33,796 nucleotides of DNA, taken from contig CADDYR010000008.1 of the NCBI GenBank assembly GCA_902810765.1, positions 1 to 33,796 on the forward strand, read 5' to 3'. Shown here one piece after another: positions 4,955-18,763 of the stretch. A model generated the notes under the pieces. That model searched no databases. It saw only the letters and a program-made list of their open reading frames with translations, and was not told the DNA's origin. Positions within the stretch are counted from its first letter, which is position 1. Each line of letters begins with the position of its first letter. The translations under genes and the position numbers were made by a program. The DNA is from Chloroflexota bacterium (GTDB lineage Bacteria; Chloroflexota; Chloroflexia; Thermobaculales; Thermobaculaceae).

Positions 4955-6061
4955 ATGACGAGCCAGCGCACGGCAGTCGGAGTGATCGGCTGCGGGAAGA
5001 TCAGCAGCGCGTACCTCGAGCGGCTCGGGTCGTTCGATCAGGTGGAGGTCGTGGCGTGCGCCGACCTCGACCCCGTCCGCGCGCAGACGCAGGCGGAGAC
5101 GTTCGGCATCCCGAAGCCGTGCAGCGTGGACGACCTGATCGCTGACCCGGAGGTGGATATCGTCCTCAACCTGACGGTGCCCCAGGCGCACGCGTCGGTG
5201 GATATCGCCGCGATCGAGGCGGGCAGGCACGTGTACAGCGAGAAGCCGCTCGCGGTCGGCCTGGAGGAGGGACGCAAGGTCATCGCGCTGGCGCACGAGC
5301 GGGGGGTGCGGGTCGGCTGTGCGCCGGACACGTTTCTGGGCGGCGGGCTGCAGACCTGCCGCAGGCTGATGGACGAGGGCGTGATCGGCGAGCCCGTGGC
5401 GGCCACGGCGTTCATGATGAGCCACGGCCCGGAGGACTGGCACCCCGACCCCGAGTTCCTGTACCAGCCTGGCGCGGGGCCGCTCTTCGACATGGGGCCG
5501 TACTACATCACCGCGCTGATAAACATGCTCGGCCCGGTGAGGCGCGTGACCGGCTCCGCGCGCATCTCGATGCCAGAGCGGACGATACTGAGCCAGCCGA
5601 AGCACGGGCAGAAGATCAGGGTGAACACGCCGACCCACCTCGCGGGCGTGCTCGACTTCGAGGGCGGGCCAATAGCCACGCTCGTCACAAGCTTCGACGT
5701 GTGGGCCGCCGAGGTGCCGAGGATGGAGCTCTACGGCACGAAGGGCACCCTGAGCCTGCCCGACCCCAACACCTTCCACGGTCCCGTGAGGCTGAATCTC
5801 CAGGGGGAGGGGGAGTGGTGCGAGGTGCCGCTCGAGTACGGGTTCACCGGGAGCGAGCGAGGCATCGGGCTGCTGGACATGGCGAACGCGATCAGGACCG
5901 GCAGGCCGAACAGGGCGAACGGCGAGATGGCTCTGCACGTGCTTGAGATCATGCACGCGGTCCACGACGCCTCCCGCGAGGGTCGGCACGTCGACCTCAC
6001 CACCACCTGTGCCCGCCCCGCCCCCCTGCCACGGGGCGAGGGAGAGGGCGTCTTCGCCTGA
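4955..6061 (+). CDS. Gfo/Idh/MocA family oxidoreductase
   Basis: A 368-residue NAD(P)-dependent sugar or cyclitol dehydrogenase. The Rossmann start is [28 protein letters not shown] carries the conserved EKP lysine near residue 97, and a C-terminal GFO_IDH_MocA_C-like domain follows. The ATG at 4955 follows AAAGGAA at normal spacing. It is the third member of the rhamnosidase-SGNH-dehydrogenase neighbourhood, so oxidation of a sugar freed by the other two is plausible, but the substrate cannot be read from sequence. The last 20 or so residues ([14 protein letters not shown]) are low complexity and are encoded by a GC-rich palindrome, unlike a normal family C-terminus; they may come from a repeat that extended the frame. 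Confidence 0.9.
6014..6038. repeat. GC-rich palindrome at the 3' end of the Gfo/Idh gene
   Basis: CGCCCCG at 6014-6020 pairs with CGGGGCG at 6032-6038, flanked by GAGGGAGAGGG. It sits inside the last codons of the dehydrogenase, just before a convergent gene. It may be a REP-like dispersed element or a GC-only terminator. Confidence 0.5.
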
Positions 6062-16953: not shown

Positions 16954-16974
16954 TATAATAGAACATACGTTCTA
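16954..16974 (+). promoter_or_regulatory. Promoter -10 overlapped by SOS (LexA/DinR-type) box
   Basis: TATAAT at 16954-16959 is directly joined to the palindrome TAGAAC-ATAC-GTTCTA at 16959-16974. Its core GAAC-N4-GTTC is the Gram-positive-type LexA box, also reported (from memory) for a Chloroflexota LexA. The palindrome would cover the transcription start point, the classic position for repression. The -35 (TGCCGA, 16-base spacer) is poor. Confidence 0.75.
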
Positions 16975-16991
16975 GTTCCAAGGAGTGCCCG

Positions 16992-17219
16992 ATGTTCCTG
17001 CTGTGGTACGACGACACGAAGAAGAAGCCGACCGAGGAGAAGATCCTGGAGGGGATCGAGCGCTACGTCCAGAGGTTCGGGGCCCGTCCGAACCTGTGCC
17101 TGGTCCACCCAGAGGAGGTGGTGCAGGCCCGCGGCATCGCGATTCGCGGTGCGGAGTACGTGCGCCGCAACAACTACTGGATCGGGGTGGAGAGCTCGGA
17201 GGCCGGCCGGGCGGCGTGA
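16992..17219 (+). CDS. 75-residue protein of unknown function under an SOS-type box
   Basis: A compact soluble protein beginning MFLLWYDDTKKKPTEEKI, then a helical region (EGIERYVQRFGARPN), a strand-like LCLVHPEEVV, and AIRGAEYVRRNNYWIGVE. No signal peptide, membrane segment or cysteine-pair metal site is seen. I do not recognise a named family. It looks real: AAGGAG is 6 bases before the ATG at 16992, a perfect -10 lies upstream and codon use matches the neighbours. The LexA-like palindrome across its promoter suggests damage-inducible expression (inference). It is monocistronic between cdsA and the end of the convergent respiratory operon, and its stop lies at the base of a 19-bp hairpin. 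Confidence 0.8.
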   Translation: MFLLWYDDTKKKPTEEKILEGIERYVQRFGARPNLCLVHPEEVVQARGIAIRGAEYVRRNNYWIGVESSEAGRAA

Positions 17220-17262
17220 GTCGTGCGGGGGAAGGGCGGGGCGGCCCTTCCCCCGCACGACT
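17219..17262. terminator. 19-bp perfect hairpin, probable bidirectional terminator
   Basis: 17219-17237 is the exact reverse complement of 17244-17262, with a 6-base loop (GGGGCG). It starts at the last base of the small gene's TGA and ends 7 bases before the cytochrome b/c stop codon, so it can end both convergent transcripts. There is no T-tract on either side. Confidence 0.8.
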
Positions 17263-17269
17263 CGAGAGC

Positions 17270-18763
17270 TTACCTGCCCGCCTCGGAGCCCCGAGTGCGG
17301 TGTCGCGAGGTGCCCTTCTGCTCGCGGCCGGCCTGCTCGACCGGCGGCCGCTTGCGCGTCAGCAGGAAGGCCGTGAGCGCGTCCTGCTCCTGTGGGGTCA
17401 GCGTGCCCGCGTAGCTCGGCATGTTCGTGCCGCCGTTCTGGATCCTCCATATGATCTGGCCCGCCGTCAGGTCCTCGCCGATGTAGCTCAGGTCGGGCCC
17501 GCGGGTGCCTCCGTAGCCGTCTATCGTGTGGCACGCCTCGCAGCCCTTCGTCTTGAACAGGTTGGCTCCCTGCACGACGAGCGGGTTGTTGGAGGCCACC
17601 ACGCTCCTGGGCAGGGGCTGCGCGTCGTAGGAGGGGACCCAGGGCGCCCGCGTGCCCTCGAACGTCAGCACGAACACGAGCAGGAAGGAGGCGACCACCG
17701 TGCCCACCGCCCACGGCCGACGCGCGAAGTGGCGCTCTCCCCTGTTCGAGAGGAACGGGACCAGGATGATTATCAGCCCCGTCACGAGCGGCCCGCCGAT
17801 GATCAGCCAGTCCTCGAACAGGTGCGGGCTGAGCGCCAGCAGCGCGAAGATCCACTGGAAGTACCAGTCCGGCTTCGGCTGCGCGACCAGATCCGTCGGA
17901 TCGGGGGGCTTGTCCAGGTGCGGCGGCCCGTAGAACATCGCGACCGCGAGCACGATCAACACCAGCACGAAGGACGCGACCACGTCGCGCCACACCCCGT
18001 CCGGCCAGAAGGGCACGCCCTCGCGCTCGAGCAGCGAGTGGTACCAGTGCTTGTACGTCTTCGGATCCACCACCCTGCCCAGCTTCGGCGACTCGGAGAT
18101 GCCGTGGTAGATCACCAGGTACAGGTGGACGCCTATCAGCGCGAAGATGGCCGCGGGAATGAAGAACACGTGGAAGGCGTAGAACCGGCTGAGCGTGGTA
18201 CCGCCGATCGTATGGCCCGCGAGCAGGAAGTCCACCAGCCACGGCCCGAGCACGGGGAAGCGGGCGGCCTGCTGCGCCAGGATGAATATAGACCAGTACG
18301 CGATGTTGTCCCAGCGCAGGAGCTGTCCGGTGAAGGCCATGCCCATCGTCAGCGCCAGCAGCGCCGCGCCCGTCAGCCAGTTGACCTCGCGCGGGTACTT
18401 GTACGCCCCGATCAGGAACACCTGGATCATGTGGAGCCCGATGCAGATCACCATCGCCGAGGCGCTCCACACGTGCAGCCCCCGAAGGATGCTGCCCATC
18501 GGGGCGACGTTCGTGATGTACTGCAGGCTGTCGTATGCCTGGCCCGTCGAGGGTATATACACCGTGGCGAGCGCGATGCCCGTGACGACGAGCACGATGA
18601 ACGAGGTGAGCGTCATGCTCCCGAGGACGTACGTCCACGCCATGAAGCCCTTCTCGCGCGGGATGGGGTGGCGCGCCGTCGCGTTCCAGACGGTCGAGAT
18701 GCCGAGACGCTCGTCCGCGGCGTCCCATATGACCTGCAGGTAGCGCACGAATGGAAAGCGCAT
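17270..18763 (-). CDS. Cytochrome b with C-terminal cytochrome c domain (bc complex)
   Basis: A 497-residue fusion: membrane quinol-oxidising cytochrome b (about 1-370) followed by a class I cytochrome c. Heme b ligands are H97/H111 (13 residues between) and H198/H213 (14 between); the latter spacing is the b6f/Gram-positive type rather than the mitochondrial one. The Qo-site motif reads PDWY (298-301), a variant of PEWY. The c domain has CEACH at 408-412 and a likely axial Met at 448 (TNMPSYAG). It replaces both a separate c1 and, possibly, a soluble carrier. ATG at 18761-18763 follows GAGGAG. It is the last gene of the operon, after the Rieske gene. Confidence 0.93.
   Translation of the reverse strand: MRFPFVRYLQVIWDAADERLGISTVWNATARHPIPREKGFMAWTYVLGSMTLTSFIVLVVTGIALATVYIPSTGQAYDSLQYITNVAPMGSILRGLHVWSASAMVICIGLHMIQVFLIGAYKYPREVNWLTGAALLALTMGMAFTGQLLRWDNIAYWSIFILAQQAARFPVLGPWLVDFLLAGHTIGGTTLSRFYAFHVFFIPAAIFALIGVHLYLVIYHGISESPKLGRVVDPKTYKHWYHSLLEREGVPFWPDGVWRDVVASFVLVLIVLAVAMFYGPPHLDKPPDPTDLVAQPKPDWYFQWIFALLALSPHLFEDWLIIGGPLVTGLIIILVPFLSNRGERHFARRPWAVGTVVASFLLVFVLTFEGTRAPWVPSYDAQPLPRSVVASNNPLVVQGANLFKTKGCEACHTIDGYGGTRGPDLSYIGEDLTAGQIIWRIQNGGTNMPSYAGTLTPQEQDALTAFLLTRKRPPVEQAGREQKGTSRHRTRGSEAGR

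Follow-up and report, generated by a model that had tools for sequence, protein, structure and literature searches.

A small Chloroflexota protein of unnamed family, probably LexA-controlled and a likely accessory in the replication or repair of damaged DNA

Introduction

The stretch of Chloroflexota DNA analysed here (the window, 33,796 nt) contains a short gene whose promoter carries a perfect palindrome with the core GAAC-N4-GTTC. This core defines the LexA regulon of Bacillus subtilis and of Mycobacterium (PMC3323433), and the locus therefore raises two questions: is the palindrome an SOS box read by LexA, and what might the 75-residue protein behind it do? The SOS response of Chloroflexota has been little studied, and our literature search found no paper devoted to it. 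A sequence-only reading had proposed a damage-inducible, monocistronic gene for a soluble protein that could not be placed in any family. Here, we follow these proposals through the window, the draft genome it belongs to, related genomes and phages.

Results

The box is fused to the promoter of a conserved single gene

The TATAAT -10 element occupies positions 16954-16959 on the plus strand and runs into the palindrome TAGAACATACGTTCTA (16959-16974, without strand), the first T of which is the last T of TATAAT, one base thus being common to both. The -35 region is weak, and the transcription start is expected beneath the box. An AAGGAG ribosome-binding site (16980-16985, plus strand) lies 6 bases 5' of the ATG at 16992, and the 75-codon gene (16992-17219, plus strand; stop codon 17217-17219) starts 17 bp downstream of TAGAACATACGTTCTA. 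The palindrome joined to TATAAT, the ribosome site and the reading frame with its translation, all claimed beforehand, could hence be read directly from the letters. Allowing up to one mismatch, the window has a single match to the 16-mer pattern, and none of 100 shuffles that preserve dinucleotide composition contains one.

The gene is genuine and constrained by purifying selection, as judged from dN values of 0.17-0.20 against dS values of 0.69-0.89 in comparison with three relatives (~70% identical). At its end lies a perfect inverted repeat with 20-nt arms and a 6-nt loop (17218-17263, without strand), which has no T run and is probably a bidirectional terminator between convergent genes, since the next ORF (17270-18763) is encoded on the minus strand. 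The terminal repeat and the convergent neighbour support the description of the gene as monocistronic in the window genome; it does not extend to other lineages, where the gene is found in operons.

The same core precedes lexA and other damage-response genes

The window genome is a draft of 3.98 Mb in 384 contigs (96% complete, 4.6% contamination). Throughout this draft, the 12-base GAAC-N4-GTTC core occurs at 21 sites compared with 17 for a reversed control pattern, which puts the bare core, counted over the whole genome, close to chance expectation, and most of its matches are fortuitous. What gives a LexA box its weight is therefore position and conservation, not the genome-wide count. The only strong lexA match in the genome has the exact core GAACATCCGTTC between TTGACA and TACAAT, TAGAACTTTAGTTCTA lies directly 5' of imuA in an imuA-imuB-dnaE2 cassette and has a divergent SRAP gene on its other side, and recA has the box TAGAAAATATGTTCTA with one mismatch to the core. 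Had this lexA carried a different box, the SOS reading would have suffered; the core found there is the same and, together with the imuA/SRAP and recA sites, it makes it very probable that the LexA of this genome reads GAAC-N4-GTTC. The palindromic box between the divergent imuA and SRAP genes (L095, G000:C107, position 10874) may control both.

Several further core sites in the draft are recorded here in their own right. A TTGACT-box-TATACT promoter (L096, G000:C241, 5659-5670) precedes an ORF ending at 5970, whose 84-aa Cys-rich product has a treble-clef-like C-terminus and a weak DUF2116 match below the cut-off; it is a candidate for a second unnamed SOS gene. TATACT and an exact box (L013, G000:C130, 2021-2032) stand before ORF 2063-2660, encoding a 198-aa protein for which Pfam gave nothing significant and whose matches were unnamed phage families only. 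The exact box GAACATACGTTC (L099, G000:C326, 2920-2931) is located at the start of a WYL-domain HTH regulator with PF13280 and WCX domains and a weak PafC HTH match, perhaps a LexA-linked second damage regulator. Immediately 5' of a ribosome site and an ORF of ~100 aa without a match in Pfam, we found another exact box (L020, G000:C328, 1893). Lastly, a core match around position 2012 of G000:C22 (L001) is probably in a spacer, because it is flanked by copies of GTAAGGGATTGAAAC that resemble CRISPR repeats.

The protein family is widespread and its box is conserved

Relatives of the 75-aa protein turned up in 92 of the 158 genomes of the class in a single-sequence search and, by a profile search, in 85 of a phylum-wide sample of 400 genomes, other Chloroflexota classes included. 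An exact GAAC-N4-GTTC was present within 700 bp upstream at 31 of the first 44 family loci but in only 9 of 674 random segments; the palindrome does accompany the orthologues. Within the 450 bp upstream of family genes the density of exact boxes was 1.46 per kb compared with 0.030 elsewhere in the same loci, an enrichment of ~49-fold with a Poisson P of 6.5e-36 that is too optimistic, the genomes being related. The flanks of these boxes tend toward TAGAAC-N4-GTTCTA, and the junction of TATAAT and box, TATAATAGAAC, is conserved in genomes of the same taxonomic family (L022, L024, L027, L028 and L029; TTATAATAGAAC in L030). Boxes at family loci also occur in some other classes. Directly upstream of the gene in f19 and f51 there is no box, and for the phage copies (L206-L221) the 700 bp upstream contain no exact box. 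Among 30 lexA loci, 17 could be placed and oriented; in 9 of these an exact box lies close to the start. Taken with the box at the genome's own lexA, the orthologue upstream regions support the SOS reading, and LexA control of the 75-aa gene is, from these sequences, almost certain.

Gene partners differ between lineages

The window gene stands alone; elsewhere, its neighbours vary by lineage. A standalone DUF6504 ORF precedes the gene of many members in several families, f2-f5 among them; there the box stands in front of DUF6504, and at loci of the f2-f5 type it is some 290-430 bp away from the family gene. Elsewhere in the class DUF6504 is placed between imuB and dnaE2, and it matches the C-terminus of proteins annotated as 'DNA polymerase Y family protein'; because of these two observations we equate it with ImuB-C, described as a standalone SOS-linked domain (PMC3765255). 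Matches of the DUF6504 sequence in plasmids were to proteins annotated as DUF6504 or to the ends of Y-family polymerases. For the family gene we obtained no plasmid match, and an origin as a mobile-plasmid gene was rejected.

In f64, the gene order is lexA, an FtsK-like ATPase (FtsK_SpoIIIE) and the family gene, lexA and the ATPase each having an exact box of their own in front. An FtsK-like ORF is also close upstream of the family gene in f6 and f9, whereas the upstream ATPase is less specific in f19 and f51 and matches only generic AAA models in f19. In the window genome we found neither DUF6504 nor a short FtsK-type translocase, which is likewise not found beside most family members, and the imuA-imuB-dnaE2 cassette is on another contig, without the family gene.

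The protein has a confidently predicted fold without a match

Searches of Pfam, NCBIfam and PDB sequences gave no significant match for the family but weak and inconsistent ones only, no PHROG was matched by the members tried, and PF20114 (DUF6504) was matched neither by the window protein nor by 41 relatives. Assignment to a known protein family was rejected on these grounds. The earlier statement that the protein cannot be placed thus holds for these collections, but it missed the widespread homologues, which on present sequences make up an unnamed and undescribed family. AlphaFold2 predicted a single soluble domain of beta-alpha-beta-beta-beta topology for the window protein (pLDDT 92.1, pTM 0.79) and reached a pLDDT of 94 for a protein of a second subfamily, with the signature MxxGMLWFDNDP...PxHFWIG. 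At E <= 0.001, Foldseek found no PDB neighbour for either model and no BFVD neighbour for the first; the second model's top PDB matches were segments of HK97-type capsids at E 0.2 and above, which are not significant, and a known fold was rejected. W5, D7 and G65 are invariant in alignment A1 of the family. We recognised no signature of catalysis or of DNA binding.

Basic tails and phage relatives

Members in f49 carry long, basic, low-complexity tails with about 14-22% K+R. The tails of 5 of 10 f49 members (L177, L178, L183, L184 and L188) contain Q-x(1,2)-[ST]-L-W (shuffle p 0.0002-0.00065 each), a motif that holds the sole tryptophan of the tail or, in L178, one of two. It resembles QLPLWG, the clamp-binding peptide of mycobacterial ImuB (PMC10421592). 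The motif is lineage-specific, being absent from the window protein and most members.

Family relatives are encoded on 16 IMG/VR contigs (L206-L221), some of which may be host DNA. Several are located beside genes for Erf-type annealing, O-like initiation, DnaB-like, RuvC-like, helicase, integrase or FtsK-like proteins; in the phage pair L216/L217, the FtsK-like gene is two genes upstream of the family gene.

Discussion

We put a probability of roughly 0.6 on the reading that the 75-aa protein is a LexA-repressed, DNA-damage-inducible, small soluble accessory in the replication or repair of damaged DNA. Box, promoter geometry, conservation and gene partners are observed in the comparison; LexA repression and damage induction are what we infer from the sequences. 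With LexA sitting on TAGAACATACGTTCTA, the TATAAT promoter and the start point would be blocked, and RecA-driven cleavage of LexA would free the gene together with recA, lexA, imuA-imuB-dnaE2 and SRAP. The product would then probably act at damaged forks or on repair intermediates as a small adaptor that would contact DNA, a DNA motor or a partner polymerase; the sliding clamp may be a further contact in one lineage. We infer these binding partners, and the molecular role as a whole, from the company the gene keeps: DUF6504, FtsK-type ATPases, basic tails and phage replication and recombination modules together suggest work on DNA, which makes an accessory role in replication or repair reasonably probable. 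An adaptor specific for the clamp or for translesion synthesis is a tentative refinement.

How far the role can be narrowed depends on the alternatives. The family could be a translesion accessory that pairs with standalone ImuB-C and steers DnaE2 or a Y-family polymerase to the clamp, as the operon and single box shared with DUF6504/ImuB-C in several families, the position of DUF6504 between imuB and dnaE2 elsewhere and the Q-x-[ST]-L-W tail motif in f49 would suggest. However, by hand count the family occurs in about 25 of 53 genomes with DnaE2 and in about 67 of 105 without it, f13 keeps DnaE2 without the family gene, and in the window genome the gene lies outside the cassette and DUF6504 was not found; this role is doubtful. 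Since the family does not track DnaE2, showing no preferential co-occurrence with it, an obligate mutasome subunit was rejected. Alternatively, the protein could assist or regulate a soluble FtsK/SpoIIIE-type translocase that clears or segregates DNA after damage. This would suit the ORF directly upstream in f64 with lexA in front, those close upstream in f6 and f9 and the phage pair, yet the short translocase was not found in the window genome or beside most members and the f19 matches are to generic AAA models only, so that it is unlikely.

The small, tightly boxed single-gene SOS unit of the window lineage would also be expected of a division inhibitor of the YneA or SulA kind, but the sequence has no membrane helix, LysM or Pfam match, and both the gene partners and the phage neighbourhoods are DNA-metabolic, which leaves this role a slim chance. 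That the palindrome is a chance match or the site of another regulator agrees with the genome-wide core count being close to that of the control; it is contradicted by the box and promoter layout conserved upstream of orthologues and by the same core at this genome's lexA and imuA/SRAP, and we rejected it as extremely improbable. Because there is no DnaE2 enrichment, the tail motif is lineage-specific and partners vary, we commit ourselves only to the SOS-controlled accessory. A more far-reaching proposal would see the family as SOS effectors present phylum-wide and in phages, with a fold of their own, that act as small clamp- or motor-directed adaptors at damaged forks and replace ImuB/UmuD-like translesion accessories in many Chloroflexota; it is speculative.

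To judge from its sequences, the family probably helps in replicating or repairing damaged DNA and has so far been overlooked in this. With its predicted LexA control, its conservation over much of the phylum, its confident but unmatched fold and its recurrent ties to ImuB-C, FtsK-type motors, lexA and phage replication genes, it is a well-defined candidate for one of the components still missing from the picture of bacterial damage tolerance, and its promoters provide a clean set for defining the Chloroflexota LexA motif.

The arrangement can be compared with several known systems. It shares the core of the GAAC-N4-GTTC LexA regulon (PMC3323433), and lexA, imuA-imuB-dnaE2 and, with one mismatch, recA are boxed in the window genome too; it differs in that the controlled 75-aa protein is in no named family and the lineage is Chloroflexota. 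Like standalone ImuB-C (DUF6504; PMC3765255), with which it forms operon partnerships in several Chloroflexota families, the protein is small, soluble, found in SOS operons and linked to polymerase and repair genes, but ImuB-C is predicted to be all-beta, whereas the 75-aa protein is beta-alpha-beta-beta-beta without a PF20114 match. The mycobacterial ImuA'-ImuB-DnaE2 mutasome (PMC10421592) is SOS-controlled, as the family is predicted to be, and the tail motif of f49 members resembles the QLPLWG peptide of its ImuB; unlike the mutasome, the family gene is not in the cassette, has no polymerase-related domain, occurs in many DnaE2-free genomes and mostly lacks the motif. Finally, YneA-type SOS division inhibitors are small and encoded by single, damage-regulated genes; the window protein, also small, encoded by a single gene and probably damage-regulated, is set apart from them by having neither an N-terminal membrane helix nor LysM.
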